Below, piece after piece: positions 583 to 52,407 of a DNA stretch of 64,000 nt. A program made the position numbers and the translations under genes. The stretch is from Plasmodium malariae (Eukaryota > Apicomplexa > Aconoidasida > Haemosporida > Plasmodiidae). Within the stretch, counting starts at the first letter, position 1; each line of letters opens with the position of its first letter. The stretch lies in NCBI RefSeq assembly GCF_900090045.1, contig NW_021638288.1:1-64000 (forward strand). The letters run 5' to 3'. The notes under the pieces were generated by a model, which made no database searches, was not told the DNA's origin, and worked only from the letters and a program-made list of their open reading frames with translations.

Positions 583-1508
583 TCACTTTTTACTGAACTT
601 AATTTTTTCATATTTTTTAGCTTTTTTATGGTAATAAAAAACGTACGATATAAGTGTAACACCTAATATTAAAAAAGGTATAACATATAATACAATATTA
701 AATAATTCTCCTAATACTTTTTTAGATTCATCTGCACCAGTCAATAACCACTTAAAATATTGCTTTAAAGTATCCTCGTAGGGACTTAAAATCGACTTTA
801 ATCCTGATAATTCCCAAAATACATCTACACTAGATAAACACAGAGATATATCTACTATGAGTAGACTAAATAATAAAAAAACAATAATAAAGTGATCCTA
901 ATCGTAATGAGAATTTTTTACGCATTATTTTTTTGTAAGTCTTATCACTAATATTCTTGTTCCTTTTAAGAAAATCTACAAAATCCAGTTCTTTGAATAT
1001 TTTTTTTTCAAGATGACTGTATTTTTTTGTCACAAATTTAGAATATTTATTGTTCATATCTTGTTTATGTCCATCATAATTATTTAATGAACCTCTATAA
1101 TTCTTTTTTTTTTCTGTGCACTCCTTTTCAGTATTAGATATATCCTTTTTTTTATCCATTCCATTATTTGATATCATCTCTTAACATTGCAACTTTTGAA
1201 TCCTTATCCTTTTTATATTTTGCTAGTAATCGATATATTCTGTCGTCTAATTTTATGGCAAGCGTGTACTTTTTGCCTACGTATTTGTTAAACGTAATCT
1301 AAAAATCCAAAATAAATAATAGTTATTTAATGAATAAATAATATATTGATGAAAACAGTATTCATAAAATATAAAATGAAAAATATAATAACAAAAATAT
1401 TCTTAAATAATTTTATCATACCACATGATTACTTAAATGGGGTATCCACGTTAAAAAGATAAGTACAACAATTTTAATAAATGAGAAAATCATAATGCTT
1501 TTTTTCAT
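583..1508 (-). pseudogene. fam-l exported protein, frameshifted pseudogene
   Basis: Two-exon subtelomeric gene. Exon 1 (1422-1508) encodes a 29-residue hydrophobic leader beginning MKKSIMIFSF. The intron (1299-1421) has donor GTATGATA and an AG acceptor. Exon 2 (from 1298) opens in phase 0 and carries the fam-l hallmark RLLAKYK at codon 23, a PEXEL-like export signal lacking the acidic fifth residue. A one-base frameshift lies near 1170-1180, before the segment SNNGMDKKKD; the following frame contains HLEKKIFKELDFVDFLKR. A second shift near 885-895 separates this from the two hydrophobic segments and the basic tail YHKKAKKYEKIKFSKK, which ends at TGA 583-585. All expected parts are present in order but in three frames. 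Known family role: exported two-TM protein of unknown function. The shifts are not in obvious long homopolymers, so real decay is more likely than assembly error. Assignment to fam-l rather than fam-m rests on the KKIFKELD block. Confidence 0.85.
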
Positions 1509-4500
1509 GTTCTGTTCTTTAATTATTTTAAAATATTTAGTAAAAGATTCATAAAAAGTTATACTATAACCTCTTAAAGGCAAAGGATATTATATTAGTT
1601 ATTTAATTCTAATTTTTTTTTTTTTCTCTATCTACTTAATAAAATTTATATAATTGTAGAGTATTTTATAACATCGATATACAAAAAAAAATATTATAAA
1701 GGTATTATATAATTTTTAACTTTATAGTGTTTATTAAAAAAAAATAACTTTCATCTAAATAAATAATTTTAATTTATATAAAAATATTCAAAATATATAT
1801 TTTAATTATTTAGCAAAGTAGTTTAACTAAATAAGTTTATTATTAATTTCATTCAGAATATATTATGAAAAAAGAGTATTTCCATATTATAAGGAAATAC
1901 GGAATTTATATACCATATAGATCGTATAGTATACATATAAAATACATTATTTCATACTCCAAACTAATAAGTAATGTTATGAATATCTTGTCATTAAAAA
2001 TTATAATTTTATTAACATGATATTTTGAAAAAAATTATTTGTAAAAAAATATTAATTATAACAAAACAAAAACAGTAATAATAAATGAGGATAACTATAT
2101 TTTACATAATATTTTGTAATATGTTAATATATCAGCATAATATATTTATGCATAAAGGAAATACGATCTTTTATATTCTAGACCATGCTTAAAGAATCGA
2201 GTATATATGGAAATACCTAATTTCTGAAAAAATATATAAAGTTAAATAAGGTCTAATTTTTTTGTTTTTTCGAAAACTTTTGAATGTTATAGATTTAATT
2301 AAAATAAATATATATCATTATTTCTAAGTGAAAACTATTTATATCTAACTACTTAATTATTTTTAATTAATTCTAAACATTTAGAAAGAATATTAATATA
2401 ATCAAAAAAAAAAAAAAAAAAAAAAAAAAAAGGAGATTAAAGATATAATAAGCATTAATATAGTACAAATAATTTAATTAATTTGGAAACATATATGAAA
2501 TAAATTTACAAATAATATACAGAATAAAAATGATTTGTAACAAATCATTAAGAAACAATATAATTTACTAAAAAGTATTGTTTAATAATTTTTCTATGTA
2601 TGATTTTCAAATAAATTTATTATTTTGTTTTTATTCATTTTAAAATACGCAATGCTTGTAATGTATTTTAACAGTAAATCATAATAAATCTATATAAATA
2701 TATAAAAAATAACATTTTATTAAATATACTTTTAATGGAAAAAACGTATTTTACCCCAATTGTTTATTTTCTCAAGAGCTAAAGTGGATATGAGAATTAT
2801 AAAAATATCATATTCATAAATATTTATTGTAATAATCTAATATATAATCTCAAATTATTCTTATTAAAAAGTCTTAGCCTGCAAGTTAATAAGTTGAAAA
2901 TTGAAATAGAGAAAAATTTCCTAAATTTAAAACGCCATTTTTAAATTATAAAAATTATAGTTAATATATATTTATTCCTTTAATGTATATATTATTATCG
3001 TAACAACACTTATTAATTCTTTTATTTAGTCTCTTTTAGGTTTTTCGCAAATTTTATTGTCCCATTTTTTTAATATCATTTAATGTTTCTTTACATAATA
3101 TAATTTTACCGATTTTAAAAATATATAATAATCCAAGTATATATCGTATAAAATAATATTCGAAAAATAAGGATATTACATAATGATATCCTTCCAAGCA
3201 ATTATTTAAAAATAGTATTTTTCTGTTCAAGAAATATTGGTGATTTTTAAGCTTTTTTCTGGGTCTTCTTGGAAAATATATCTTTATTTTTCACATTTAT
3301 TTATACCTCTCTTATGTTAGAAAATAATGAACTAATATTTTAATTTACTTGTAAAATTTTTATTTTTCTCCTTATTAAGTATATTTATCATGGATAAATT
3401 GTTCTGTTATATATATATTGCTCAGTAAAGTTAGCGTAATTTTCGTATTATGTATTTTTCACATTTAATAAATAATATAATTAATATTTAATGCATACAA
3501 ATTAAATAAGTTAAATATATAATAACATGAAATTTAATTATATTATTTACATTCCTGTGCAAGATATATAATACAATATCTACAAAAAATATGATATCAT
3601 TTAAATGTTCAATAATTATAGAATTTAATCCACGGTTTATAGGTTTCATCATAATTCACATACAGCAGCTTAAGTTTTTTCTTTTATACAAAATAGAAAT
3701 ATTTGAAATGTTTACTATTTTCTAATTTTACAGAATAATTATATGTTCTACTAGGTCTAATAAAATTTCATACGAAAAATAATAAATACACTCTTAACAT
3801 ACAACCTAAAATATGAACGTTTATATATTAATTATATAAATGGATGTGTGATACAGAAAATATCTAATATTTTTATTTAAGTACAAAATTTTAAAAATTA
3901 GTGAAGAATTCATAAAAATTATATTATTAAGTGCATAATTGTACAATTCTTAAAATTGTGATTATAAGTGAATCTATTCAATTATAATGAATCTCGATTA
4001 TAATATAATATTCACTAGAACAGTTATACGCGCAAGCATAATCTTCTTCTACTACTACTTTTTAAGTATTTATATTATAATTTCCAATGGTTATATTAAC
4101 ATTTATTTCATTACTTTTCATATATTTTCTCTTTTATAGCTCTATAAGTTATTCTAGCTAAAAAAGAGAATACCATTCCACCACCCCTGTAATATATGAG
4201 GACAGGAAATTTTTGGAGTAATAGTGTTTTAATTATATATATATATACATATAATTTATTAATACTAGTTATTTGGACTCCGTTAATGTCTTCAATAAGA
4301 AAAAATAATAATATTTTGAAATTTCTAGGTGAACCATTGGATAATATAACGATAAATGATCCTTAAAATGCAAATATATATTCAGACGATAGCATATATT
4401 ACATGACATATTATAATGTAAAAAATAACTTATATATATTAATAATAATAGTTTTTTTTTATATCAATTAATGTCCTAACAATTTTTTTTTGAAATTTAT

Positions 4501-12540: not shown

Positions 12541-12567
12541 TTTCTTATATTTCTTATATTTCTTATA
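12541..12567. repeat. Tandem 9-mer TTTCTTATA x3
   Basis: Three perfect head-to-tail copies of TTTCTTATA followed by TTT, in intergenic DNA. It looks like a small minisatellite with no evident function. Confidence 0.9.
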
Positions 12568-13137: not shown

Positions 13138-13158
13138 AATAATAATAATAATAATAAT
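13138..13158. repeat. (AAT)7 microsatellite
   Basis: Seven perfect AAT units preceded by a short A run, in the intergenic region upstream of the PIR gene. Confidence 0.9.
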
Positions 13159-14421: not shown

Positions 14422-15611
14422 ATGGCATCCGGAGATCCAGCAGAAAATGTAATAACTATTTTTATGTTATAATAATTATATGTATTATTATATTAAAGAA
14501 TCCTCCATTCTAGAAATGATATAGAAATATATTGCAACAAATTATGTTTTTGCGCACTTACATATTAAAATCGTACTTTTTTTCTTTTCAGGAAACTTCC
14601 GTGACATTATTTCTTAAATATAAAAAGGAATTTGAAACAGTTATCTTAGATATTCCTAACACGAAACGGGGAGGAAAAGGTGAAAATCCTGGAAGGAAAT
14701 GTGGTAAAATTCAGAGAAAATATCATGATTTTACTACACCATGCCAAGAAGTTGGTAGATATTTAATTGAAATAAAGGAACTCTATAAACATGATAGCCT
14801 CAAACGTTGTAAATACTTAAATTACCTAATCAATTCAGATGAAAAATACAATAATTCAAGTTGGTTTCAGGGATATAAAGATTTTTCGTCCCAAACAGAA
14901 AATATATGCACAGACGAAATAAAAACTATTCCGAAGGAATCTTTAGATAAACTTAAAAAAATATATGGCTATTATGATAATTTCAGCACATTTAATGGTA
15001 AAGACAATGACTCCGATGGTAATATTTGTAAAAGTGTTAGAGAATGTTATAACATTTATAACGATAATTACAATAAATGTCAAAAAAATAGCAATGACCC
15101 TTTTTGTGAGGAGTTAATCAATTTTAAGTATGCATATGATGATAAAATGAATAAATTCACTCCATGCGAAGGTTTGCCACAAACATTACCACAAACAGAA
15201 CAAATTTCAACACAAATATTACCACCTACAGAAGATGTAGATTACTTATTTGTTCCCATTTTAACAACAGCTATCGTATTACTAATGTCATTCACTATAT
15301 TTTTTTTATATAAGGTTAATAAGAATTATACTAAAAATTAATAATAATTTATCACATATAGAATAATTTATTTTCACAAAAATTATAAGAATATAAAAAT
15401 TATATTTTTAAATAAATATACATATATTTTGATGTAGTTTACTCCACTGAAATCTTGTATATATTATCGTTTACGAAAAAAAAAAATTATTGAACTTAAC
15501 AAATTTCAAGAAGAATCGATAGAATCCTTACAAAACCTTCATGAAGAAGTAAATAGAAATTATAAAGGAAGTTCTCATAATATAACTTATCAACCTCAAG
15601 GAAACACTTGA
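14422..15611 (+). CDS. pir: PIR (Plasmodium interspersed repeat) protein, intact, 307 aa
   Basis: Classic three-exon PIR structure. Exon 1 is 14422-14448 (MASGDPAEN), intron 1 14449-14591 with a TTTTCAG acceptor, exon 2 14592-15314, intron 2 15315-15437, exon 3 15438-15611. Both introns are phase 0 and the whole frame is open. Exon 2 encodes a cysteine-containing ectodomain (KCGKIQRKYHDF, PCQEVGRYLIEI, NICKSVRECYNIY, DPFCEELINFKY), a Pro/Gln/Thr-rich stretch and one TM helix (about residues 227-248, VPILTTAIVLLMSFTIFFLY). Exon 3 begins with the hallmark FTPL and gives a basic, then Asn/Gln/Ser-rich 57-residue tail ending PQGNT. Joining exons at LYK|FTPL is the usual PIR arrangement. Known role: large variant multigene family, thought to be exported or at the infected-cell surface; exact function unknown. 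The frame after FTPL passes through an 11-base A run (15476-15486), where a length error would break the tail. Confidence 0.93.
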
Positions 15612-18280: not shown

Positions 18281-19178
18281 TTACTCCTTTATTAACTTAA
18301 TTTTGATATATTTTTCATTATTTCTTAAAATCGTATAGAACCCTACTATAAGCATAACAGCTAACATAACCATAAGTACGCTAAATAATGCTATAATAAG
18401 ATAGGACAGTACATCCTTTCCCCAACCTCCTACTGCTTCTTTCAAAGTATACCATATTGAACCATCTTCAGTAATACTGTCCCATGCGTCTTTCAAAGAC
18501 GGTAAACTTGATAATATGGGTATTGCTATTCCCAGCAAGAGAAAAATAACAAACATAGCAACTCCAATACCATACTTTCTAAATCTTATTTTTCTTAAAG
18601 CTATATCATGAATTCTCCTGTTTTTTTCAAGAAAATAATCGTAATCTTTTTTTTTTATCCATTTCTTATCAAAATGGAAATGCTTTCCATCAAACATTCC
18701 ATTATTATAATCTACAACTTCTATATAGTATTGTGCCTTATTTAATGAATTCCTTTTAGAACTTTTTCTCTTTATCAATGGATTCTTTTTCACTGTTATA
18801 TGTATTCCTTGTTTATTTACTTCTTTATTTGGAAACTTTTCTTTAAAATATATATCATTTGAATCATAATACTCATTATATTTTGCTAGTTATCGATAAT
18901 TCCTGATATTTAATTTTCTACCATCATTGGAGTTTTCATAAAATTTTTTTTAAAATATTTTCTAAAGAAAAAAAATAAAGTAAATATTTGTTATTTGAGG
19001 GATAAATAATTATTACTATAAAAAATTATTAATAAATATATAGCTCTTAAAATATGTATAATGCAAATACACATAAATAGTATTGTCATACCATATCATT
19101 GTTAGAACTTCCCATCCATATTAAATACATAAACGCAGCAATTTGAATAAGTAATAATAACTTATTTTTTTGTTACAT
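18281..19178 (-). pseudogene. fam-m exported protein, pseudogene by nonsense mutations
   Basis: Two-exon gene with all fam-m parts in one frame but three stop codons. Exon 1 (19092-19178) starts ATG TAA, so codon 2, usually Glu in this family, is a stop; the remaining leader KLLLLIQIAAFMYLIW is intact. The intron (18962-19091) has donor GTATGACA. Exon 2 (18281-18961) has TAA at codon 4 and another TAA directly after the Arg of the PEXEL-like box at codon 23 (RNYR-stop-LAKY). Downstream everything is open: the hallmark KHFHFDKKWIKKKDYDYFL, then LEKNRRIHDIALRKIRFRKY, TM segments near residues 161-178 and 215-237, and the basic end NNEKYIKIKLIKE. The long open C-terminal part suggests recent inactivation. 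An internal GTG (18791-18793) could initiate only a leaderless fragment. The family is exported and of unknown function. The fam-m label rests on the KHFHF-KKWIKKKDYD block. Confidence 0.85.
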
Positions 19179-21889: not shown

Positions 21890-22856
21890 TTATCTTTTCC
21901 TGAATTTTATTTTTTCATACTTTTTAAATTTTTTATGGTGGTAAAAAACTTTTAAAATAGCTATAACTCCTAATATAAGGAAAGGTAATATGTAAATTAT
22001 AATACCAAAAAAATTTGTAACAAGAGTAGAATAGGTTTTCTTACTACTACTATCAATAGATTTTGTGATTTTATATAACTCACGCAAAGGTTCTATAGAT
22101 AACCATGTATTAAGAGTTTTTATCCACTCAGTCAAAGATAATTTACGCATTACATCAAAAAATATATTTTGAAGTCCGCAACCCACAAATAAATCTAATA
22201 TTAGTGATACTAATAACAAAAATAAAAATAATACAGGTACAAGAAATCGTAATTCGTATTTTTTACGTATTATTTTTTTGTACAACTTGTTACTAATTGA
22301 CCTGTTGTTTTTAAGAAAATTCACATAATCAAGTTCCTTGAATATTCTTTTTTCTAAATGAGAACATTTTTTTGTTTCAAATATACAGGATTTAATTTTT
22401 ATGATTTCTTTATTTTTTAGCGCATTATTTTTTGAACTTCCATTTGACTGTTCCTTTTTTACTGTAGCATATTTCTCATTGTAAGATATATTATCTTTTT
22501 TGTTTTCCCCGTTATTATATAATTTTTCATTTAAATTTACTATATCTGAATACTTATCCTTTCTACATTTTGCTAGTATGCGACAATTTCTTTCACCTAA
22601 TTTTATAATAAGATTATGGTTATCATTAGAATATTTGGTGAATTCACTCTAAAAGAACAAAGTAAATTATGATTAATAATACTAATAAATAATATGACTC
22701 TAAAAAACATTATCAATACAAATATAATATAAAACATATAAATAAAAAAAATATCCATATATAACATTATCATACCATATGAATAAAATACATCCAACTT
22801 AGAAGTATAAATGTAATAATTTCAATGAATAACAGAGATTTAATTTTTTCTTCCAT
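21890..22856 (-). CDS. fam-l exported two-transmembrane protein, intact, 279 aa
   Basis: Exon 1 is 22776-22856 (27 codons, start MEEKIKSLLFIEII, hydrophobic leader with LLSW), the intron 22649-22775 (donor GTATGATA, acceptor TTTTAG), exon 2 21890-22648. The join is phase 0 and exon 2 is open for its full 252 codons. Residues about 50-54 read RILAK, a PEXEL-like RxL motif without the acidic fifth residue. The middle is Lys/Asn-rich, then comes the fam-l block CSHLEKRIFKELDYVNFL, followed by KLYKKIIRKKYELR. TM1 is at about residues 162-183 (FLVPVLFLFLLLVSLILDLF) and TM2 at about 241-262 (GIIIYILPFLILGVIAIL), with the basic tail KKYEKIKFRKR. The start was chosen because this ATG lies 27 codons before the conserved donor, as in its relatives. 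Known for the family: exported from the parasite, function unresolved. It is the only intact fam-l copy in this window. Confidence 0.92.
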
Positions 22857-25370
22857 GGTATAGATTTTTAATGCACCAATATACTCAGCAAGATATAATA
22901 AATAAGGATATAATATTCTCTTAATTATAAAGAACACTAATATTATATCTTTAATTTAAATTTTATTATATTTTTCTAAATATATAATAAAAAAAAGTAT
23001 AACTATAATTTCTTTTATAACAGCTACGAAGAAAAGTTATTTTAAAAGTAAACTAAGAACTTTTTATCTTATTGCTATTTACAAAAAAATTAGCTTTAAT
23101 TAAAATAATAAAAATTGATATTATTAAAAAATATCAAAAATATATGAATATTTATTTAATATAATAAAGTAATTAAATAATTTTTATAATAGTTATTTTC
23201 AAAATAAAATAATATACATACAATTCTTTAATATATGGAAATATTGAGTATATATAAAATATAGAATGTAGAGAATATAGATAATACATTTCTACATATT
23301 TTAAATGAAGCATTGTTCATTTTATTGATGTTTCCTTATTAATAATAAATTTATAGAAATTATACTTTTGTAAAACTGGTTATGAATAAAAAAATAATAA
23401 TTTATATATCCCTATAATAATAGTACTAATAAATGAAGAAAACAATAATTCAGACAACATTCTGTTTTATTTTATATATAGTATTCAATATAGTTATTTA
23501 GTAAACGTATTTATTGTTTTATTGCCTTTAATATATTTTTATTAAAGCAAGTCTATTAGAAAACAAACAATCTAATAAAAAAAAGTATATATTTCAAAAG
23601 CGCATAAAGAGTCATCTTTTACTTTTATACTAAATATTTTGAAGGTTATAATATATAATTAATTATAATTTGTACTATAATAACTAAGTAAAAATTTTGT
23701 AAATGTATAGTATTATTTTTATTTTAATTTAATATAAATATTTAGAATATATATAATAAATAAACGAAGTGTACAGTAAATGTTATATAAAATATATTAA
23801 TATAAGAGCTAACTTGGTAAAAAAATGCATATCGTTAATTATGCCAAGAGTATAATTTAATATAATTTTTATCATAGATATTTAAGTAAATCTTGTAAAA
23901 GGACTTAAATAAATAATTATGTAATTATAATAACAAAAGCAGCAATTCATTCATTTACTGATGTTGATATTAATACTCAAAATTAATAATCTACAATATA
24001 TACTTCATACTAAAAATTAAAAGTACAATAATGTATCTTACTCTTCTTTTAAATAAAATTTCACCTCAAACTCTAAACATTATATCATTGTGCATAAATT
24101 TTCTACTAATAAAAATATTTTTTTTAATGTTCTTTTGTTTAAAAAATAATTGTTATAAATTTGTATTAATTATTAGTTATCAATAAGAACAATAAAGATT
24201 TATTCATTTTAAATATAGTAATAATATTTTGATTCTTATATTTATAGGAATGAGTAACAAATAGCACAAGTACATAATTATTTATTTATGCATAATTATA
24301 TAATTGTAAATATGTAAACATTCATTTTCATTATTCGTATTGAAAACTTTTACTTTTATAGAAATATAACAAAATATTTTAAATTTATTATTATTAAATA
24401 GCAAAAATAATGTAATTTAAACAAATTATACAAGAATAACCGATTAAATTTTATTCATTAATATAAGCTTTCAATCATGTAAGTTATAAACATAATATAG
24501 AGAATAAATATTTATTAATAATCAATATAATATAATTAAGTAATTTTTTTAAAATAAATTAAATATGCACATACGTACAACAATAAGTTATTAAAATATT
24601 TTAGTTCTTCAATTAATTGTAAAGATTTATAAGTCCAAAATTATTTAAGGATTACATATAACCAATATTTAATGGAGGTATTATTATAATATATTTATAT
24701 TTTACTTAATAAAACATGAAAAAAAACTAAACATTAATTCATATGCTATTTGCAATAAACATGCTTTTTATAGCTTGTCATAATATTTATGTTATAGAAT
24801 AAATTTTATGCTTATTCATAAGTAATACATAAATATATATAATTCTATAAAATAATTGCATTTCGTTCTATTAAATAAAAAAGGACACACATTCTTTTTT
24901 TCAAAAATAATAATTGTCATCTTAAAATTACATCAACATATAATTATTGTGGACTACAGTAATATGAAAAATTCAAACGAGCACATATTTTGTTTAAATA
25001 CAAATTATCGCCCTACCATAAATTTATATAAAATGAACTATTATATATTAATTTGAACCTACAAACAAGTATTTGTCATTAGAATATGTTTAAATATACT
25101 AATATGCATATCACGCTATAATATCTAATTCAAATTAAACAATTCTCTAAAATAGATAATTGAAAACACTAAAACATTGAAATTTACAAATAAACTAGTT
25201 AAACATTTATTTATTCTTGTGTAACAAAAATTCTAGCTACCCATAAGTACGTTTATTTAATATAAGAAGTTACTCATATATTTATTTTAAATATATAACT
25301 AACTACACTATATTTATATATTCACGTTAATTCATATTCTAGAGAAAGAAAAGTATTTTTTTTATCCACT
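22857..25370. other. AT-rich intergenic block, 2.5 kb
   Basis: No supported gene or RNA. A frame at 24856-25056 (+) has no family features. The sequence is dominated by A/T runs and short TA repeats. Confidence 0.55.
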
Positions 25371-26195
25371 CTAACATTTCCTTTTCATAATACTTTTATG
25401 CTTTTTAAATTTTATATAATTCCAGACCATATAATCAATATAACAATTAGTATAACCAATAATACAAGAAATAATGTAACATCATAATATTTTACATCTG
25501 TTACAACACTCTTTTCATCAAAAAAACGTTCAATAATAGCTCCTAATGATACTAGTAACACCCATGAGAGTACCACGGTAGGTAAAAACATTTTATGTGC
25601 AAACATTATAGTTATTAATTTTTCGTATTTTATATTACAAAATAACACTCTTTTTCTGGTAAAATCTATGTAATCAAGTTGCTTGAAAATTTTTTTTTTC
25701 TAAGCGATATATTTTTTTCCTTTATATATTAATTTTTTTTTACCTTATATTATTTATTGAATCCTCTATATAATGAACTACTCCTTCATTGTATGTTTGT
25801 TTTATTTCCTCATTTTCTATTGTTATATACAAATTTTTCATTATTCTGTTCATCACTTGTTATCTCTTGCATAAAATATACATTATATGAATAAGTTTCT
25901 TCTTCAAATACTTCTAGATATAGAAAATTTTTTTAAATCTAATTTTATATTATACCTATGCTCTACCAGGGATATTTTAAACGCATTCTAATAGAAAGCT
26001 AAAATATTTATTATTTAAAAAAATAATCGAAATCTCAAAAATATAATTGACAAAAATAAGTACTGAATAAAAAAAAAATGCAAATTTCCTCAAATAATAT
26101 TATCATACATCTTTATTGTAAAAATTATATATCCAAGTTAGAAGGATAAACTCCACAATTTTAATAAAAAGGATAGGCTTTATTTTTTGTTCCAG
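25371..26195 (-). pseudogene. fam-l exported protein, decayed pseudogene
   Basis: Exon 1 (26109-26195) is a clean 29-codon leader except that the start is CTG instead of ATG (CTG GAA CAA AAA, then PILFIKIVEFILLTWIY). The intron (25988-26108) has donor GTATGATA. Exon 2 from 25987 begins NAFKISLVEHRYNIKLDL, then meets stops and loses the RxL box. The recognisable fam-l block HRLEKKIFKQLDYIDF-type sequence (25640-25710) contains a 10-base A run that is one base too long for the frame, so it is shifted. The final 78 codons (25412-25648) are open and hold two hydrophobic segments (LPTVVLSWVLLVSL and LFLVLLVILIVILIIW), ended by TAA; the usual basic tail continues in another frame to TAG at 25371-25373. 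Start loss, stops and shifts together make this non-functional. The A-run shift alone could be a read error, but the rest could not. Confidence 0.82.
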
Positions 26196-29100
26196 GAAAT
26201 ATAGTTTTAAAATGATACTATATTAATTAAGTAATAAACAAGAAATACTGTAATATTTTTTTAATTATAAAGGATATAATATCTATTTTATTAATTTTTT
26301 ATTTATTTACTAAAACGTAATAAAATATATCTAATTAAAATGTTTCTTACAACTAAAACGAAGAATAAAAACTTTAAACATATATTATATAATTTATATA
26401 ATAATGTCATTTATAAAAAATTAACTTTAATAAAAATAATATAATTTGTTTTTATTTATAAGTATCTAAAATATACAATTTAGTTATATAATATAGTACA
26501 GTAATTAAATAATTTTTTTTTTATTATATTTTAAAGTAAAAAATTTAGATTTTATTTCTTAATATTTATAAATATTCAAATAATACAAAATATAGATTAT
26601 ATGGAATATATATTGTGAATTTAAATATAAAATAAATGTGTAGAAACCAATTTTAATCATGCTTCGCTTTTAAAAATTCTAATTTTATACATTTTTTTGG
26701 TAGACTTTTTCTTTATAGTTAAATTATATTAATTTTTCTAGAAATAAAAACTATAGAATATGTATAACAATTTAAGAAAGATATTACTAATTTTATAAAA
26801 TATAAATTAGGATTTATCTAAAAAAATATATATGTTCTTTTGTAAACTTTTCTGTATTAATGAAATAAAATTTATTGCTACAGCGAAGTTTGTGAATTTA
26901 CATGTATATTTAACTCTAATATAATACTGAGGTTTTTAATTTTGTATAATGATTTTACAATATAATAATTTACATTTTAATTGAAATTAAATTTATTATT
27001 ATTTAATAAAATATTAAAAATTTTGTAATTTCCTAATTTTGATTACCTCTTTTATGAATGTATATAAATATATATGGAGAGAAATGCTAATGTAATAATA
27101 AATAAAAGGAACATAAAAATGAATTTGATATAAATGTATTGTATGCAACTAAATTATATTAGAAATATTTACAGCCTTATTATTTTACAAATGAAGGTGA
27201 AAAAAATAATATACTTATAAGATATATAAAAGGATCATAAACAAAATTTAGGAATATAAATAATTTACTAATTTTTATTAAGAAATAATTTAGAAAAAAT
27301 CCATGTAATTTTATTTTAATACATACTATTAAAAATATATCTTTAAGATGAAACTTAAAAAATTAATATTTTCAAATAACTTAAATATTTTTTATATTGA
27401 CAAAATTATTATATATCTTAGCAATATTACTCTAAGAATATTTACAACATAACTCACAATAATCAAAATCCTTATTCAAAAAAATATTATTATCAAAAAA
27501 AAAAAGAAGCAATTTTCTTATCTTTATATCAATAAGTTAAAGTGCATAAAAAACAAATTAATATATATAAAAGGTATGAATAAAAATATTTACAACAGTT
27601 AATTGTTTTTTTTAATTATTTAATCAAGTTGAAAAAATAGACATAATTATATATCATTCAATTATATTATATGTATGTACTTTAATATTCATAATGATAC
27701 AAGTCTTCTATCTTTTATATTCATTCATGCATTCAGATACATAAATTTTAAATAACTAAAAGAATTTTTTTACATTAAATATGTGGCAACTCTTAAAAAC
27801 TAATAATAGCAGATGCTTCTAATATGTATATTAAGAAATAAGTTATAAAAACATATACATTTTATTTAGTGCAATCATACTGTGTTAATTTTTTAACGTT
27901 CTCAATAACATAATCCACATTTATTTTTCTTTAATTCTTTTTCTTTTTCCTTTTATTTAATAAAAATATTTAATGATTTATTTTTTTAATTATGCCAAAA
28001 ATATAAATAGAATCCTTTTCTAAAAATCAATTTATTTTATCATAAATATTTAAAGATATTTTCATAAAATACACTTAAACCAAAATTATGCTTGTATAAT
28101 AATAAGAAGATGAATATAATAATCCTGTGATTCACTGAAATTATCTAGCAGTAATGCAAAATATTAATAATATTCCACAAAAATATTCTAAGAAAAATTA
28201 ACAAATAAATTCTCAATATTTTACAGAAATAATCTGATTCCTAATTAATGAAATATTTAAATTTTTCAATATTAAATGTATATAATATAAACATATGGTG
28301 TTATAATAAATATATATATTAACATTTTTTAAATTATTCTAGTTATAATATATAGTATAACAACCGCTTCTTTTGAATATTTATCCTATTATATTTGAAT
28401 ATGCATCTTCTAATCAATAACGTTATTAATGTTATATAATTATATGTTATATAATGTTTTTTATTCCAGTAAATTGTTTAAAAATATAATATAGTATACT
28501 ATATATATGTTTAAACAAAATATTATTGAACTACAGCTACATTAATTAATTATTTTCCACTGATATTTATTATAAATCTATTAATTTTTTTCAACTATTC
28601 TATTACTAGTAACTGAACTACAAAGATAGATCACCACAAACGTATATTCTTTAATTTATCATAATAATGTGTCAAATTTCTGTTTTCATCTAATGTTTTT
28701 TTGCATTAAAATTTTACATATTTTACCATAGTATTTTTTAATATAATTTTTTTCTAATTAATCTACTATTCTCAAAACTTATTTAATGCATTCGTACCTT
28801 ATATAAGTTTAAATATATTTAAGTAATATAACGCCAATGAAAAAAATAAATAACTTTATATTAATACGCCTATTATACAACGTATAATTCATTAATTATA
28901 CAGAATATTATATAGAATAATCAAATAAAATAACCAATTTTATTCATTAAACGCTTATTCCTTTTCCTATATATAAATGTTAATAAAAAAACTCATGAAA
29001 TTATAACTAAAACAGAAATAAAATGGATAATCTATGTTACACAAAACAGTGGAATCCACTATAAACCAGAAATTGTAATGTATAATAATATTTAAATATA

Positions 29101-31930: not shown

Positions 31931-32714
31931 TTACTTATTATTACCCTTGTACATATTTTTCAATAATTTACAGTAAGTAACTAATACTGTTAAAATAAAT
32001 ATTGAAACAAATATTGAAAAGGTTAATGCGGAATAATCTTTTATATACGTTTCTTTTGTTAGCATTGCTAACACCAATGCAGCAATACTAAACAATATAA
32101 CTGGAATAATAACAAGAATACGCCTTAGAAATTTTTGTGCAAATTCACACTTAGGGTTATTTACTTCTTTGTTTTCATTATCAAATGCTTTTACCATTTT
32201 AATATCATATATATCATCTAATCCATTTTTAGGTTTAATAATGGATGGTGATACATTTTTTTCCTTTTTTGACGATTTTCCTTTTAATTTGCTAAGCCGT
32301 CCTTCATAGTTATCATTATTATATGATGTATCAGATGCCACTTTAAAGTTTTTTTGAGACATTTTTTTTAAAGGCATGCTTCCATTGGGGGAATGTAAAC
32401 CTCTTTCTTCATTTAATAATCTGTCTACTCTTACATATAATGAATTACTTAAATCAATTTTCTTAATATATGATATTCCATATGTATTTGTCTAAAAATA
32501 TGAGCAAATATTTGATATTAAATAAAAATATAAATATTTTTGCATGAATAAAATATTAATTTTTAAAATTAAAATGTATAATTACAAAAAAATGTATAGA
32601 AATTGTTAAATATAGAAATTATCCTACCTTATATGAATTCTGATATGTCCATATTAAAAGGGAAAATGCGCAGAATTTAATGAAGAAAAAGAATTTGTTA
32701 ACTTGTATCATCAT
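31931..32714 (-). CDS. Exported two-transmembrane protein with canonical PEXEL, 215 aa, unknown function
   Basis: Exon 1 is 32628-32714 (29 codons, MMIQVNKFFFFIKFCAFSLL, signal-like), the intron 32492-32627 (donor GTAGGATA, acceptor TAG), exon 2 31931-32491; phase 0, fully open. Residues 53-57 are RLLNE, a perfect RxLxE PEXEL motif 24 codons after the splice junction, predicting plasmepsin V cleavage and export to the red cell. A Lys/Ser/Asn-rich linker follows (KLKGKSSKKEKN). TM1 is at about residues 154-173 (RILVIIPVILFSIAALVLAML) and TM2 at about 183-203 (LTFSIFVSIFILTVLVTYC), then a short basic end KNMYKGNNK. The leader exon and two-TM architecture resemble fam-l and fam-m, but neither KKIFKELD nor KHFHF blocks are present, so I leave the family open (annotated elsewhere, I expect, as a Plasmodium exported protein of unknown function). 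Two adjacent ATGs exist; the first is used. Confidence 0.88.
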
Positions 32715-39696: not shown

Positions 39697-40507
39697 TTAC
39701 TTATATTTATTTATAGTTCTATATTTTTTAATTTTTCTACAGGTATAAATAATGCCTAATACAATAGATAAGTATATCGCGAATGCAAAACCTAAAAAAA
39801 TTATATAGACGAGATAAGAATACGTACTTCCTGAATTAATTATTTGTTTTGACTTAGACACTAATCTTGAATATACTAAAGCTACCAATAAAAATATATA
39901 GGCAGGAATTAATAATAATTTTATCTTCTTTCTATTTATGGCTGTACACTTTTCCCAATTGTTCATTTCTTCGTTATTCTTTATTTTGTCAATGGAATGT
40001 AATACGCTGAATATTTGTTTTTCACAAAATACATCCGCTCTACTAGATAACGAAGAATTACTACTTCTATGCACTTTATGCCATTTTTCTCTTTTTAATT
40101 CACTTTCTTTTAATTCTTTGTTTTGTGATAATATATCTTGTTTATTTTTAGATATATGTTCTTCATCTAGCACTTTATTATATAGTCCATCAAAATTTCT
40201 ATTCACTGAATGATGTGCTAACTGTCGATTAGTAGTTAAGTTTAAATCTCTATATAACTTATACTTCTCATCCAATAACCCATTGCAGCTCTTCTAAAAA
40301 AAAAAAAGTAAACATATTATTTATAAGAACATATGTTTCTATGCTAAGAAAATGTTATTTTTAAAGATAAAATATTCAATAACAAAAAATAAAGTATTAT
40401 ACGAAATATTATTATAATACCAAATCATTGTTATAACGAATTATCCAAAATAAAAGAGTAAATATAAAGATTTTAATAAAAATGATGGAATTGAAATTTT
40501 TTTTCAT
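39697..40507 (-). CDS. Exported-type two-transmembrane protein, 227 aa, unknown function
   Basis: Exon 1 is 40421-40507 (29 codons, MKKNFNSIIFIKIFIFTLLF, signal-like), the intron 40294-40420 (donor GTATTATA, acceptor TAG after an A-rich run), exon 2 39697-40293; phase 0, fully open. Exon 2 begins KSCNGLLDEKYKL. Codon 23 of exon 2 starts RQLAH (residues 52-56), at the position where relatives have RLLAK or RLLNE, so it is a degenerate PEXEL-like box. The middle is charged (KNKQDILSQNKELKESELKR; SSNSSLSSRADVFCEKQ). TM1 is at about residues 154-173 (LLLIPAYIFLLVALVY) and TM2 at about 188-212 (YSYLVYIIFLGFAFAIYLSI), with a basic tail CRKIKKYRTINKYK. It resembles fam-l and fam-m in plan but lacks their central blocks; I treat it as a separate exported-protein family member. 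Nothing suggests that it is broken. Confidence 0.87.
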
Positions 40508-43605: not shown

Positions 43606-44637
43606 TTATTTACTACATATTTTACTTTTTCTGCACTTAATTTTTTCATATTTCTTAGCGTTTTTATGATAATGAAAAACGCACCATATAATTGTGATAC
43701 CTAATATAACGAACGGTACCATATATATTAAAATACGGAACACTTGACCTAATATGCACGCATCAGTAACTGTTGTACCACTGCACAACATACATGTTGG
43801 CCAAGAATCCAAAATTTCCGAGTACTTCCAAAAATCAGTTATCTTTTTCAACACACTTACAAGTGTATATAATTCTCCCTCATTCTCATTCACTAATTTT
43901 TCTAAATGAGTTTTTTTCAAACCGAAGTAAGACAATAAACAATCTTTATCTGATAAACCTAGTGCTAATTCTACTATGAATACTATCAAGAAAAACAAAA
44001 ACAGCAAGGAAGGTAAAAGAACCTGTAGTTCTCACTTTTTAAATATTATTTTTTCATAAATCCTATCACTCACTGCTTTGTTATTTTTAATAACATTCGT
44101 ATAGTCAAGTTCTTTAAATATTTTTTTCTTTAAATGAGCATATTATTTTGTTTCAAATAAACAAAATTTATTTTTTGTATCCTTTTTGTTCTCACTAGCA
44201 TAATTTAATGTATTTCTGTACGTTTGTTTTTTCTTTTTCATAATGCCTTTTTTATTATAATATATATCTTTTTTTTCTCACGCTTCTTTATGTGGTATAT
44301 CTTCTATAAAATCTCTAATAAATGTATCATTATATCTCTTTCATTCTGCTAATAATCTACAATTTCTTATACCTAATTTTCTAATAAGGATGCATTTCTT
44401 CCCCCAATATATATTATACATACACTTAAAAAACGAAGATAGCATGTGTAATTTAAAGATAAATGCTACCAACATAAAAAAATATTATTAATAAACATAA
44501 TAAATGAAATATAGGAATATGTAAAATATGGTTAAATAATATTTTTATACCGAATCATTGTTAGAATGGCATATCCAAGTTAAAAGGATAAACACAAAAA
44601 TTTTAATAAATAAAAATATCGTAATATTTTGTTTCTT
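43606..44637 (-). pseudogene. fam-l exported protein, pseudogene
   Basis: Exon 1 (44551-44637) keeps 29 codons of leader (ITIFLFIKIFVFILLTWICH) but the start is AAG where ATG is expected. The intron (44425-44550) has donor GTATAAAA. Exon 2 from 44424 has the PEXEL at codon 23 as RLLAE, which here is a full RxLxE, followed at once by TGA. Further in-frame stops: TGA after DIPHKEA, TAA within ETK-stop-YAHLKKKIFKELDY, and TGA in KIIFKK-stop-ELQ. After the last stop the frame is open for 133 codons (43606-44007), with TM1 (PSLLFLFFLIVFIVELALGL), a cysteine-containing loop, TM2 (RILIYMVPFVILGITIIW) and the tail YHKNAKKYEKIKCRK, running a few residues past the usual end. All lesions are substitutions in one frame, with no shift needed. 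Non-functional, with an export motif that was canonical before decay. Confidence 0.85.
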
Positions 44638-47600
44638 GTTGTATAATCTTAATAATGTAACATATTAATTATATAATCAGTTAACAATAATAAAATACAC
44701 TGTTAATGACAAAAAACAATATAATTATTTATTTAACTATTTTCTATTTTCATATTAACGAAATAAAATATATATAACTCTAGTTTTTTTACAACGAATT
44801 GACTGAAAATTAACTTTAGAAATATAATATAAAATTTTTATCTTAATGTTATATACGAAAAACTAAAATTTACTAAAATAATATAAATTGAAATATTGAA
44901 AAATATTCAAAATACATTATTTATTTATTTAATATAACAAGTTAATTAAATAACTTGTTTTTTGATTACTTTTAGAATAAAATATGTATATTTATGTATC
45001 ATTTTATAATTTTTTGCTGTATTTCCTTGTTACAGTGTAGATAATTGAAATAATACACTGCTATGCATATTGATAAAATAATTTCTAATATTTAAAATGT
45101 TTTCTTATTAATACTTATTATATACATTATACTTGGAAAAATATTTTATAGCTAATATAATATTGATTATTATAACAAAATTATAATATTAATAATAAAT
45201 GTAGAAAATAATACTACTTTAATTTTATGTATTATATTATTTATAGCATTTACATTAGTTAGTACATGGGCATTTTCATTCTTATATTATCTTTTATATA
45301 TTTTAAAAAACTTTTTACTAATATACTACATATCATAAGTTTAAATAAATGTTTCATGTGTATAGAAAGAGTGATTTTTTATTTTTCTATAATTATTCTT
45401 GAAAATTATAATTTTTATTAAAGTTTAAATTATATGATTATTTCCAAAAAGAATGCTTGTAAATGAATGTATCTAATTACTACTCCTTTTAATTAAATGT
45501 ATATATATATATAAGCATTAAAAAATAAAAAAATTAAAACTTGTATAATATGTGCAAATATCAGAATAACCTAAATTATAAAATAGGTTTATATAATTTT
45601 ATGAACAATAAAAATAAAAAAAATTATTGTTTCATTCATTTGCTTTAGTATATATATTATAGCAATATTTATAAAATATAATTAAACCAAAATTACTTAT
45701 ATAAAAAATAAATTAATAAATATTGGTATCCTACTACTTATTGGAAAAGAAGAGTACTACACAAAATTAATAATTCCATACTTTTAATTACTACTAAAAT
45801 TAAATTATCATGTATATATATTGACTATTTTTTAGAAATAGCCCGAGAACTGACCTTTGAAAAATAAATTAAAAAGTAATATTATACTTATGCATTGCAT
45901 ATGAAAAAAATTCTTATTTTTTTACTTTTATTTTATTAAAAAAAATATAAATTATATATACTAAAGATTTACTAATAGTTTATATAAATTCTATGTATAT
46001 TTACATATTCCTAAAATAAAATAAAAACTTAAAATATTTATAGAAAACATTAAGATATATCTTCAATGCATAAATATATACCTATACATGATGAAACTGT
46101 TGTATAAAATATATTTTTGTTTTATTTTTTTTTAATGTCGATTTAAATTTTTGTAGATATATGTCACATTTTTTGAAATTCACTTCTATACGTATATAAA
46201 AAAAAGGATTTGTGCATACTATCTTTTAATATGTGATTAAATTTGATTCATTTATTTAATATTTTAATGACATAATAATTAAAAAACATTATACTATATT
46301 TACATATAAATTTTCAGTTTAATATAAATTTAATTAAATATTTTAATTATTAATTAACACAATAATAAAGAACAATAACAAAGGGATAATTATTTTTAAT
46401 TTTTCATTTAACTGTAATGATATATAATCCCAATTTAGAAAATAATTATAGATGATATATATTTTAAATGCCTATTCTTTCAATATTTATAAATTCATTC
46501 TTTTATGATGCAAAAAAACAAAATTTATGATAGATATATTTAAAGGGTAAATCCAAATTAGTGGTTTTATAATTTTATACTTAATAATTATAAATAGAAT
46601 CTAATAATTACTATATAATTTATATAAATATATTTTATTTATTATTACTAAAAGTAAATTTTTTAAAAATAAGAGTTCATTTATTTTCGTTATTTTCTAT
46701 TTATATTTTTTCCAAAAATAAAAAAAATTTATATCTTCGACAAAATATGTATATTTAAAAGAAAAAAAAATATAAAAAGTGAACATTGTATACAAACACC
46801 TTTAATAATTATGATAATTTAAAAGAATTTTAAATAAAATTACCTACGATATAAGATATCATCGTTACGAAATGTTAAGGATAATATATTATAATTTAGA
46901 TAAATATTCGATATATAGTTTTTTTCCTTGAAAATTCTATAAATGAAAGAAGCATTCGTTTATATTTTATTTATATGTAAATTATTACTACACAAAATAA
47001 TATATTGTATTAAAAATATGATACAAATCTAAATAAAATAAATTAACATTTTATGAAATAAACATAAAAAAAAAAATATTATATATTTAATGTATTTTTT
47101 ATTATGCAATAGTAAATTCTTATTAATATGACAAATTATATTACTGTTCTAAAAAATAAATTATAAATTAAGATAAAAATCATATTATATTTTTAATTAT
47201 ACCATGTGTTTCATACTATCCTGTGGCACTGACATTAAAATAAGATAATTATTTTTTTTATTTTATGCTTTTATATACATGTTGGATATATATTTATATA
47301 TATTATAAATATAATGTATTTGGAAACATAATCGTTTCATAACCATAACATATTCCATTATTTCACTTCCTCTTAATTTTCGAATATTACAAATTTCCAT
47401 TTCTACAAAAAAATATAAATGCGTATTTTAATTAATAGTTCTGTATATTATGAGAAATACATAATGATACGAATTATTTATAAATATAACTTTTTATTTA
47501 ATAAATGATTTTCGTATACTGATGTAACTAATTGAAATATTTATTTTTAGCAAAACTTATTTTTTCCTATATATTTTTTTATTTTTATATCCAATAAAAT

Positions 47601-48202: not shown

Positions 48203-48901
48203 TTAAATTTTGGTCTTTTTTATTTTTATCTTTATAGCACGGTACATCCAATGCACAATTCTAAAAATATATTTGCTGAAGGATTTTAAAGTATAACTTA
48301 TTTCTTCAGTAATAAATCTATTCCGATTTACAGCCATTAATTTATGTTTTAATTTTTTATATTTTTATTTAAGTTTTTCCTTATATATTTTAATTTAATT
48401 AGTCCTATATTCTTTAAATTATTATTTCATATTATCTTTTCTAATGTAGGTTTATTTTCCTATTTATTTTTTTTTGCTTTTCTTCGTTTTCTTTATTTCC
48501 ATATTAATCATATTCTGATGTCTTCTTGTTCAAAATTGCATTTTTTGCTTCATTTTCCCTCATGTATTTTTCTATTAAAATAAAATTTTTGTAATCTATT
48601 GAATAGTTCCTATTGTTCCTCTGGTTTATCGTTTTTCTAATCTGGAAATAAAAATAAGACTTAAAAATATATTTTATAAATTCATAATGTGTTTAACCTC
48701 ATAATAAGAAAATTGTGCTCACACAAATTAAGCAAACAACAGCAAAAAAAAAAAAAAAAAAAATAATAAACAAAAAGAAAAAAACCAAGTATAAATATTT
48801 TAATTATACTATATCATATTATTATTACAGTGACAACTTCATATACAATGGACAAATTAATAAATTTTTATGATGAGAAGGAACTTAATTTTTTTTTTCG
48901 T
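48203..48901 (-). pseudogene. Relic of a two-exon exported-type gene, family not recognised
   Basis: The leader-exon signature is visible at about 48816-48901: ACG (in place of ATG) followed by KKKIKFLLIIKI, then stops. A good acceptor (TATTTCCAG) at 48642-48650 opens a frame of 54 codons from 48641 (IRKTINQRNNRNYSIDYKNF, then YMRENEAKNAILNKKTSEYD), ended by TAA and further stops. The last 50 or so codons before TAA at 48203-48205 are open again in a frame reading KLMAVNRNRFITEEISYTL and FRIVHWMYRAIKIKIKK. RNYSIDYKN sits roughly where fam genes have RNYRLLAKYK. A 20-base A run lies in the presumed intron. The order leader, intron, polar exon matches neighbouring exported genes, but the C-terminal sequence matches none of them and no TM is evident. 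Confident that it is debris of a gene; not confident of the family. Confidence 0.55.
48744..48763. repeat. Poly(A) tract, 20 bases
   Basis: Run of 20 A residues inside the presumed intron of the relic gene at 48203-48901. Confidence 0.9.
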
Positions 48902-51601
48902 GACATTTTTCCATATTACACATAAATTTAGTATAAAAGAAACTGTTCATTATAATGATCATAATTCTATTTAAATAAAAGTTTCTATTTAAACTCTTCT
49001 AACATTTTAATCATATATTTTAGTTTATAGATATTAATTATTTAACTATACATATATATATATGTACACATTGTGTTTTAAATGATAATATAAAGAAGAA
49101 AAATACAATAATTATATAGTAATATTTCTTTATATTTTTACTTAATATCCTCTTAATATATTTTTAGTATAATCTATATAAATTAGGGTAGTAACCAATC
49201 CAAAATTTACTAGAAAGTTTATTTTTCTATAATACATAATTTCTGGAATAAAAAAATTACCTTTATACATAAAAAATAAAAAACATAGATAAAAAAAAAT
49301 TCAGCTAAAATTAAAAAATATATATTTTAAAAATTTTATTTTCATGTCTATTTCGTTTTGTTTTGTTTTATTTTTTTTCAGAAATAAACCATGATTATTG
49401 AAATACAAGGATATCACTATTTCTACTGATATTTGATGTAACTATAGTATAATGTTATAACTCCTCTACAAACAAAATGTTTAATCCTTCGAAATAATAC
49501 AACAAAACAATATATTCTACTTATTTCTGATGTAAATACTATATGGAATACTCATATTTTTAAAGAATATTTATATGATAAACAATATTAAATTATTTAA
49601 TACACATATTAATCATTTCTATTTTATATATTTTAAATATCATACGATCATAATAAAAGATTTCTTCTTAGATGTCTATTTTAGAAATCAAGTATAATTG
49701 TATCCATATTATTATTTTCTTCTTTGTTTTATTTTATTTTATTTTATTTTTTTCTTTATAAATAAAGAAATATATGCACATACATAAAACTATGAATTTT
49801 AGTTTTTTTAATATTAAACTAATTATTCTATAATTAACAAATACATAAACTTAATAAAATAATGTAAAATGGAAAGCGTAGAATAATTAAAAAATTAACA
49901 ATGACACTTATTCTTTTTTTTTCTTTTTACTTCTATACAAAGATAAGTACTTTCACTATAAATTTCTTTAATAAAAAAGAATTGATATTAATTTGTTATA
50001 TATAATATCAAATATTTTATTTACATTTTTTTATTAATTATATATATATATAAATATATAATATAAATATAAAGTAAAATGGGAAAAATTCTTTTAGTTT
50101 TTTTTTTTTATCGTGAACATGCCTTCAGCATCACATTACATATAACAGCACAATTATAAATTTTTTTTGTTCTTTTATTTTGAAGCCTTCTTAATTTAAC
50201 TTTATAAAATTTTATTTTAAAATTTTTTTTATAAATTATAAATATTATTTTATATACGTTATAGTAAACATATATCAAAAGCTAAAAACAAATAATAATA
50301 AATAAATAAAATATTTCATATAAATCCAAAATAAAACCCTTTCATTATACTCTTTTTTTTTTTTCTGCTAATTTTCATCTTATCTAGTAAAAAATCATTA
50401 TTCAAAGATTTTGTTGTAATACATTTAAACAATATGGCACTTTACTAATATTTTTGAATGTAGTCTTCGAAATGAAAAAATAAATATAATATTAATTAAG
50501 AGAAAAAAAATAACCTTAGTGCATAAAAAAAAATATCTTGAAATAAAAAAAAATAATGTGCGCAAATAATACTAGTAAAATGTTAAAAATTAAAATGTAT
50601 ACTTTTAATAATCAAATTTTAATTTAATTATTATTGCTTTTAATTTATCTTATATTATTTATTATTGAAGCTTTTATAAGATAAGGTATAATAACCACTC
50701 AAATATTATTGTTTTAATATAAATTTTTATAACTATATTATTGGAATTATTGATTTAAAATATAAATGTACATCATCCGCATAAGTTACAGCAAGATTGA
50801 AGTTATAATAAATAAAATTTTCATATATCTTATATAATGTAAAAATATAACTATGTATATATAAAATAATAATATTTTTTATCAACTAAGCATTTAATAA
50901 TTATGCTATATCAAATTATATCAAAATATAATACTATATATAATATAAATGTAAGTATAATATATTATAATTTTGTTACTGCTATACATATTCCTTCTCT
51001 TTTTTAATTAATAATTTTTATAAAAAATATTTTCAAAAATAATTACAAGATAGTAGATAATTTCTAAAAAAATATTACATTATATTTTTTAACTATAGAT
51101 CTAAATATAACTTTTCTAAAAATATTTTCTGAATATATTCTAATACATATTTTATTTCTAGAATTTTTTCTCGTATTATATCCTCATTAAAGCAATATTT
51201 TATCAATATATATTATGTATATAAATATATAATTGTTTTTCGAAATGAAATTTTGTTTGGTAAATTATAATATTAACACAATTATTTCGGTAATGTGCTC
51301 ATTAAATAGTTTTTTATTTGTTTTATTTGAATAATATTAATTAATAGTATTTTAATTATAGCTTTTACGAAAATATTTTTTTTAATTATAACTTTTTTAT
51401 TGTACTTCATTAAATACTACATTTATATTTATTTTAAAAAAAATTTAAAGAATTGTTGTATAGACAATATATAAAATAATTGAGTCATGTTCTAAGTTAT
51501 TCATGTACTTATTTTTTTTGAAAAATATTAAATATATCTACTAAAATATTATATAAGCTTTTACAACTTTAAAAATATCTATTATATAACAAAATACACA
51601 A
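48902..51601. other. AT-rich intergenic block, 2.7 kb
   Basis: No supported gene. Contains four tandem ATTTT units (49731-49750) and several T runs. It separates a minus-strand relic from a plus-strand gene, so promoters for both directions would lie here. Confidence 0.55.
49731..49750. repeat. (ATTTT)4 microsatellite
   Basis: Four perfect ATTTT units in intergenic DNA, followed by a T run. Confidence 0.85.
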
Positions 51602-52407
51602 ATGATCATTTTTTTTATTAGAGCCTTTATTTTTTCCTGTCTAATATGGATATTCAAATATTCTGACGAGGTATCATAGCTATTATACTTAAATTTTTTC
51701 CTTTTTTTTTTTATTTTATGTTTTTACATGAGAGGAATATTTTATTCATATAATATATAAATATATATTTTTTTAATATGAACTTATAGTCAAATATCTG
51801 CGATAAAACTCGGAACAAGAAATTGAACATAAATAACATATTAAATATTAAATATAGCAGATTGTTAAGCAGTGAAATAAGAGCATTTCTGGAAGATAAA
51901 CATAAATGTTTAAAAGAAAAAATATATGATTTAAAAGGAAAAAGTACTGCATCATTTGAAAAAAAACCATATGCATTAAAGCAATATAACTTTTTTCAAG
52001 AAGAAGATAATGAATCAATATACAATGATACATATCAAGAAGAATTGAATTATTTTATGCCACGTAAAAAACCTCAAAATCTTGGAGATTTTAACGTTAA
52101 ACATAATTTAAAAGAAAAATCTTTTACAGTAAAACATTATAATAATATTCAGAACAATAAAAACCTACACAAATCTTCAAAAAAGTTATACTCAGAGAAT
52201 GATTCATCTTCAGACCTCATCAACTCAAGTAATAAACGTAATTGTAATATTATTAAAGATAAAATTAATGATATTCTAAACATTCAGTAAAAACATCCAG
52301 TAAAATATGCAATTTGGTATGCCCTTTTTATGCTTATATTAATACTGTTTTTGCCGTTAGTTTATTGTTTAGGTTTTTTTTATAGTATCCGAGAATGCCT
52401 AAAATAA
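51602..52407 (+). pseudogene. Exported-type single-TM protein, interrupted by one in-frame stop
   Basis: Exon 1 is 51602-51670 (23 codons, MIIFFIRAFIFSCLIW, signal-like), the intron 51671-51789 (donor GTATCATA, acceptor TATAG), exon 2 from 51790 in phase 0. Exon 2 is open for 166 codons: SNICDKTRNKK, then SRLLSSEIRAF with an RxL core 24 codons after the junction (a PEXEL-like box with Ser as fifth residue), followed by a hydrophilic Lys/Asn/Ser-rich region (KKPYALKQYNFFQEEDN; SSSDLINSSNKRN). TAA at 52288-52290 ends it. The same frame continues at once with KHPVKYAIW, a hydrophobic helix (YALFMLILILFLPLVYCL) and a short tail FYSIRECLK to TAA 52405-52407. The TM was therefore lost through a single nonsense change; the shortened product (189 aa) could in principle still be made as a soluble protein. 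Family not recognised. It lies on the opposite strand to most fam genes here. Confidence 0.75.

Follow-up and report, generated by a model that had tools for sequence, protein, structure and literature searches.

The loci and their shared 5′ module

A 78,840-bp contig of Plasmodium malariae begins with the 64-kb window analysed here, which contains eight genes or pseudogenes that share a short hydrophobic first exon and, at all but one, a phase-0 intron followed by an Arg-x-Leu (RxL) motif early in exon 2 (Table 1). All eight were recognized in an initial annotation of the sequence, which overlooked a ninth locus, a relic on the forward strand at ~63.4–64.3 kb. Taken together, the loci are probably best explained as belonging, whole or as relics, to a superfamily of two-exon subtelomeric genes in P. 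malariae that centres on the Pfam family PF12420. On direct reading, only 21890, 31931 and 39697 are intact (loci are named by their first coordinate), whereas at 583, 18281, 25371 and 43606 the frame is interrupted by stops, the exon does not begin with an ATG, or both. Locus 51602 is open, but ends before the C-terminal hydrophobic segment kept by most of its relatives. Downstream classes are denoted L (fam-l-like), M (fam-m-like), D (the family of 31931) and E (the family of 51602). Assignment to L or M was made by script from a C-terminal motif, or by hand for broken copies, so that fam-l and fam-m are inferred names rather than the outcome of a comparison with named reference proteins.

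Direct reading and a search combining a splice-site scan with hidden Markov model (HMM) profiles of exon 1 and exon 2, made from 36 clean copies, agree on the architecture of the module. The hydrophobic exon 1 is present at all eight loci; it is 69 bp long at 51602, 81 bp at 21890 and 87 bp at the remaining six. Apart from 25371, all of them have phase-0 introns of 119–136 nt and an RxL Arg at codon 23 (five loci) or 24 (31931 and 51602) of exon 2, as first described; at 18281 a stop stands between Arg and Leu. When residues are shuffled, R-x-L occupies one of these two positions just 1.5% of the time. The reported clustering of donor sites holds in looser form, with GTATGATA at three of the eight loci (583, 21890 and 25371) and near variants at the other five. 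Two deposited proteins fit the gene models, namely P0001 for 51602 (189 amino acids, 23 + 166) and P0022 for 31931 (214 amino acids, 28 + 186, starting at the second ATG).

Table 1. Module-bearing loci and relics in the window (coordinates in the window; −, reverse strand; TM, transmembrane)
Locus	Strand	Assignment	Exon 1	Intron	Exon 2	RxL motif	Arg codon	Remarks
583..1508	−	fam-l-like pseudogene	1422–1508 (87 bp)	1299–1421 (123 nt)	from 1298	1224–1232, RLLAK	23	in-frame stop within exon 2
18281..19178	−	fam-m-like pseudogene	19092–19178 (87 bp; codon 2 is a stop)	18962–19091 (130 nt)		18887–18895, middle codon a stop	23	PF12420 5e-40 on open piece
21890..22856	−	intact fam-l-like gene	22776–22856 (81 bp)	22649–22775 (127 nt)	21890–22648	22574–22582, RILAK	23	PF12420 1.9e-70 on exon 2
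25371..26195	−	pseudogene, downstream class unassigned	exon 1-like, 26109–26195 (87 bp, without ATG)	donor at 26108		none in the usual place		exon 1 HMM 32.6 bits, unpaired
31931..32714	−	intact family D gene	32628–32714 (87 bp)	32492–32627 (136 nt)	31931–32491	32408–32422, RLLNE (PEXEL)	24	annotated as P0022
39697..40507	−	intact two-TM gene	40421–40507 (87 bp)	40294–40420 (127 nt)	39697–40293	40219–40227, RQLAH	23	
43606..44637	−	fam-l-like pseudogene	exon 1-like, 44551–44637 (87 bp, no ATG at start)	44425–44550 (126 nt)		44350–44358	23	PF12420 1.8e-15 on open 3′ piece
51602..52407	+	family E gene	51602–51670 (69 bp)	51671–51789 (119 nt)	51790–52290	51859–51867, RLLSSE	24	annotated as P0001
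63400..64000	+	fam-l-like relic, extends beyond window end	not recognized					

Exon 1 peptides align across the families around an F-I-K...L-L-x-W pattern, and PF12420 matches the 27-residue exon 1 alone at 2.8e-6. The 69-bp exon of 51602 appears to be this same exon begun at a later point, as the in-frame codons 5′ of its ATG align with the starts of the 87-bp exons, without an ATG. The layout itself is textbook for exported proteins of Plasmodium and already known, a two-exon arrangement being common to most exported genes according to Sargeant et al. (2006; PMC1431722). That generality offers some ground for convergence, in which unrelated exported genes would have reached the same exon lengths and offsets independently. 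The shared leader pattern argues against it, as does its absence from the leaders of five PHIST genes of the same genome, used as an outside control (best score against the exon 1 profile, 1.5 bits). The PF12420 match to exon 1 and the 53 ungapped module columns shared by D and E tell against it as well, and we regard convergence as very improbable. The 5′ module is real and inherited.

Spacing between the splice junction and the RxL motif

The distance from junction to cleavage motif had been proposed to be held fixed. Free variation of lengths and offsets is not seen in the genome-wide data (P. malariae assembly of 33.6 Mb in 62 contigs), where spacing is tight. A TTTAG followed at 51–81 nt by a codon string of the RxLAK(Y/C) type occurs 171 times, against none for the reversed-pattern control. 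Among the 100 of these 171 matches that are listed, the spacing is 66 nt in 94, 63 nt in 2, 65 nt in 1 and 55 nt in 3, two of the last being a second TTTAG inside a copy already counted. The distance from TTGGAT to GTATGATAA is likewise 22 nt in 77 of 81 cases (control, 6). In a thinned set of 27 L genes, Arg is codon 23 without exception and the intron shows nine lengths; in M genes Arg is codon 23 in 15 of 17 and codon 22 in the other two. Ten near-identical L loci were excluded from these counts and from the analyses of L/M identity, noncoding baseline and motif position 5 given below, and nine of the ten from the identity profile of the L alignment. One gene initially labelled O (L035) is taken as L for offset, intron and position-5 counts, and also forms a one-row O line in the last. 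Exon 1 or exon 2 matches that have no readable partner or splice site, for example L085, a broken fam-m-like copy, are omitted from the counts.

These values would be expected if translocation or cleavage required a narrow junction-to-RxL range maintained by selection. However, the distance from Arg to a conserved downstream core is nearly as fixed in L genes (67 codons in 18 of 21, 66 in 3 of 21) and the intron is the part that varies, so that ordinary coding-length conservation suffices within the family. Near-fixed spacing is thus a general trait of the family's N-terminal coding part; the proposed fixed distance is true within the family, but an exact constraint on that one distance is not demonstrated. 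There are also exceptions, namely the two M genes with offset 22 and an intronless member with seven codons fewer between leader and RxL. Beyond the family, the likeliest phase-0 acceptors of the five PHIST genes, judged from sequence, place Arg at codons 21, 22, 23, 24 and 25. The range of offsets would on this basis be common to unrelated exported genes, and the exact value would not. Since these genes have an unrelated leader, a looser constraint on spacing is plausible; yet their values vary by gene, so that any constraint would concern a range rather than an exact value. Selection for mechanical reasons is, on balance, an unlikely account of the fixed offset.

The intronless member is an open, fam-l-like gene of 291 codons (L009:1498-2373, minus strand) and is a natural case of intron loss. 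A family E gene elsewhere (L057, minus strand, ~1960–2140) has no usual acceptor; in the deposited model of its protein, P0018, splicing is to a site 10 codons further on, which places Arg at codon 14 instead of 24.

Kinship of the downstream parts

The module had been described as shared by unrelated C-termini. This description fits two families only, those of 31931 and 51602, as the fam-l-like, fam-m-like and 39697 proteins are related to one another when compared through PF12420 or by profiles with the module left out. PF12420 covers the gene from end to end, exon 1 included, and has a whole-protein gathering score of 34 bits. Scores lie above this value for exon 2 of 21890 (237 bits), 18281 (137.7 bits), 39697 (88.8 bits), 43606 (57.5 bits) and P0022 from 31931 (51.8 bits), and below it for P0001 from 51602 (25.1 bits), which resembles the family over residues 2–52 only. 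With everything up to RxL removed, PF12420 still matches 21890 (3e-61) and 39697 (1.7e-20), and finds no match at E ≤ 5 for 31931 or 51602. Membership of the 31931 family in PF12420 depends on its leader, which is a warning for family counts in Plasmodium genomes.

Profile comparison of the alignments downstream of RxL gives the same division. L and M match over nearly their full length (99.5%, E 5e-23; 32 L and 3 M sequences), and L matches 39697 (89%, 2e-6). The loci tested in the window would therefore make up three downstream groups, on the evidence of these sequence comparisons, with the module as the sole link seen for D and E. When D and E are compared at full length, their 53 shared ungapped columns (34% identity, 88%, E 3e-6) hold the splice junction and the Arg in register, and the alignment stops a few residues past the RxL motif. 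Both families recur in the genome, D in 8 copies at ≥58% identity (of 14 matches) and E in 18 at ≥78% (of 50 matches). A protein search with residues 1–60 of P0022, made for other families with that leader, returned its own family only (9 proteins). One further copy of 51602 exon 2 (G000:C54:24499-24996) encodes a protein 100% identical over 166 amino acids, which suggests a recent duplication.

A kinship of D and E that is limited to the module, together with a PF12420 match that vanishes once the module is cut off, is what old acquisition of a pre-sequence predicts, in which fusion of the exon 1–intron–RxL module with unrelated downstream genes gave rise to the 31931 and 51602 families. Such acquisition was proposed for FIKK kinases and DnaJ proteins by Sargeant et al., in whose paper radiation and pre-sequence acquisition models are both already set out (PMC1431722). 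Against it, the structural model of D has the helix order of the L model and two C-terminal TM-like helices, although confidence is very low (predicted local distance difference test, pLDDT, 46.6). Moreover, the downstream part of D diverges faster than its module (one member, L064, compared with the other seven: 0.39–0.47 amino-acid against 0.85–0.88 nucleotide identity), so that divergence alone could erase kinship. The D and E modules are also old and congruent with their downstream classes. Acquisition seems to us possible for these two families, though somewhat unlikely.

Inheritance of the module

Of the two origins first suggested for the module, common ancestry is supported by the homology that persists outside the module and by joint inheritance, whereas a presently portable cassette is not. 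Among 2,485 pairs formed by 71 genes, 121 reach a module identity of at least 0.80, and in every one both genes belong to the same downstream class (55 pairs in E, 34 in L, 28 in D and 4 in M), so that cross-class pairs number zero and no recent module transfer is seen in this set; the highest cross-class value is 0.767. Within L, module and downstream identity are correlated (r = 0.77). Module and downstream part are co-inherited, which is descent and not the behaviour of a currently mobile cassette.

Separate trees, proposed earlier as a check for discordance, gave a divided answer. For D and E the modules match the downstream classes: in a tree of 70 contiguous module stretches (73 modules less 3 duplicate places), D forms one clade, E forms one clade and both together stand apart from the rest (100/98, 100/99 and 100/99). 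L and M, by contrast, are mixed in the module tree and split downstream, where the protein tree parts 33 L from 9 M at 100/100. Nucleotide comparison of 23 L and 15 M genes has the same mosaic look, the L/M identity difference staying at 0.00–0.03 over the stretch that starts 100 nt upstream and ends near codon 75 of exon 2, and reaching 0.18–0.31 beyond.

Exchange of modules between L and M would account for both observations. The 5′ differences are not nil, however, since 500 label shuffles never matched the L/M difference in 4 of the 10 pieces or windows that precede the jump, and no L–M pair exceeds a module identity of 0.77 although within-class pairs do. A single M clade is not rejected by the approximately unbiased (AU) test (p = 0.225). 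Identities in the intron and upstream are near the shuffled baseline (this noncoding comparison included 6 D and 6 E genes), and the mosaic look can be attributed to this loss of signal. Mixing of L and M modules as a proof of exchange was rejected on the same ground, and exchange itself appears quite unlikely.

Several points nevertheless weigh against descent of the whole superfamily through a common two-exon gene. The mixing of L and M modules is also predicted by exchange. The downstream parts of D and E have no profile kinship to L (1.0% and 1.3%), and a pure-descent account must therefore invoke divergence. Finally, the splice junctions are predicted, resting on homology, GT–AG sites and deposited models.

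Under descent, a single ancestral gene with two exons would be the source of the shared module, and duplication of whole genes would have multiplied it. The families of 31931 and 51602 would be older branches, in which the downstream part either diverged until its kinship was lost or was fused to the module at an early date. In functional terms, the hydrophobic stretch observed in exon 1 would act as a signal-anchor that leads the chain into the endoplasmic reticulum (ER), and the first 22–23 codons of exon 2 would form a spacer. By analogy with the plasmepsin V literature, RxL would be a plasmepsin V-type cleavage site. Cleavage there would free a mature, mostly two-TM protein for its presumed destination.

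A lysine variant of the export motif

The canonical Plasmodium export element (PEXEL) reads R-x-L-x-E/Q/D. Position 5 of the motif is E in 7 of 8 D genes (RLLNE), but outside D the canonical residues do not prevail there. In L and M it is generally K (24 of 27 L genes and all 17 M genes, or 41 of 44 sampled, broken copies included), in 39697 it is H, and in 11 of 11 E genes it is S or T (RLLSSE or RLLSTE). One of the 27 L genes has Met at position 3. K may be slightly over-sampled in the L and M sets, because the L loci are mostly the top-scoring PF12420 places and the M loci were retrieved with a query starting LAKY. An alignment from codon 1 of exon 2 was made of 41 L and M genes in which codon 23 is R and codon 25 is L or M, K having no part in the selection; conservation across the first 40 codons is highest at R23 (41), L25 (40) and K27 (39). 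At the protein level, 31 exon 2 sequences from L and M align with R23 invariant and with L25 and K27 at least 90% conserved. Genome-wide, RxLAK(Y/C) occurs 201 times (control, 4) and RxLA(E/Q)(Y/C) 28 times (control, 5), counts that cover only Ala at position 4 and Y/C at position 6 and compare K with E/Q, D being left uncounted. R-x-L-x-K, the majority motif of L and M in these alignments and counts, is a charge-reversed variant of the textbook PEXEL, which was unexpected.

Rutledge et al. describe fam-l and fam-m as having a PEXEL export signal (PMC5326575); the motif here is RxLxK and not RxLxE/Q/D. Experiments described in another study bear on this difference (PMC10952997). P. vivax plasmepsin V did not efficiently cleave STEVOR (RLLAQ to RLLAK) and Hyp1 peptides with lysine at this position (P2′). 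Of the reporters expressed in P. falciparum cells, the lysine variant of Hyp1 was mis-cleaved and retained in the ER, and STEVOR and KAHRP lysine reporters were mostly processed and less translocated. The usual assumption of export would lose ground in L and M, where it is best treated as unproven, and would stand as before in D. On the other side, RxLxK may work well enough, because two of the three lysine reporters in P. falciparum were still mostly processed. Within open-licence PMC texts, we found no paper joining 'RxLxK' and 'PEXEL' and none on fam-l and plasmepsin V in P. malariae, of which the accessible portion of PMC5880244 makes no mention. As a tentative proposal, held at rather less than even confidence, either plasmepsin V and the export machinery of the P. 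malariae lineage accept lysine, or hundreds of L and M proteins undergo maturation at RxL and then stay mostly at the vacuole or the parasite surface instead of reaching the red cell.

On this reading, the two largest exported-type families of P. malariae carry a conserved R-x-L-x-K. Hundreds of fam-l and fam-m proteins are described as probable exports, with a PEXEL as part of the argument. Their destination decides whether action at the red-cell surface or in invasion is possible. Because the lysine is conserved where published work shows loss of cleavage or export, the assumption of export is directly testable. Both the charge-reversed motif of the large families and the module-only kinship of the two small ones are worth following.

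Relation to known gene families

The loci correspond most closely to P. malariae fam-l and fam-m (Rutledge et al. 2017; PMC5326575) and to PF12420 (DUF3671, 'Fam-L, Fam-M like protein'), with which they share genome type, subtelomeric position, signal peptide with RxL and C-terminal TM segments. They depart from PF12420 in that 31931 needs its module to reach the cut-off and 51602 stays below it. Like the two-exon PEXEL genes described by Sargeant (2006; PMC1431722) and van Ooij (2008; PMC2408878), they have a short first exon with a signal, a phase-0 intron and a motif early in exon 2; unlike those genes, they have an exon 1 and spacer that are homologous across families, and their lengths are tighter. 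P. vivax PIR-D/DUF3671 proteins are reported to carry the same Pfam domain (PMC7432439).

Published accounts of the 2TM superfamily (RIFIN, STEVOR and PfMC-2TM; PMC5951124, PMC3747859) describe a semi-conserved N-terminal part, a hypervariable loop between two TM segments and a lysine-rich tail. L proteins show the same profile, with two C-terminal TM segments, a hypervariable loop and a basic tail: nucleotide identity in the L alignment is 0.37–0.48 between TM1 and TM2 and 0.77 toward the tail, and the L model has helices at 120–154 and 207–251, the TM segments having been judged by eye. The relatives of 51602 differ in having a single C-terminal hydrophobic segment, again by eye. The larger 2TM superfamily is reported to be united by gene structure and not by sequence similarity (PMC3747859). 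An RH5-like fold is claimed for fam-l and fam-m in PMC5326575. It was not recovered from our middling model (pLDDT 64.7; predicted template-modelling score, pTM, 0.46), which has no PDB match at E ≤ 0.001, and a search of solved structures with 21890 exon 2 gave no match.

Additional features of the window

The relic at the end of the window continues to ~64.3 kb of the contig and is followed at ~66.9 kb by a fam-m-like gene (L039), an arrangement that recalls the published fam-l/fam-m doublets. A weak exon 1-like stretch with stops (KKKIKFLLIIKIY) at 48814–48900 on the reverse strand is perhaps another relic of the family. An open frame at 14520–15341 on the forward strand has weak similarity to PIR (PF05795; E 3.8e-5, under the cut-off). 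A 63-nt repeat occurs at 23149–23211, 26481–26543 and 44922–44984, ~285–355 nt upstream of three family members, and is possibly a shared promoter element spread by whole-gene duplication.

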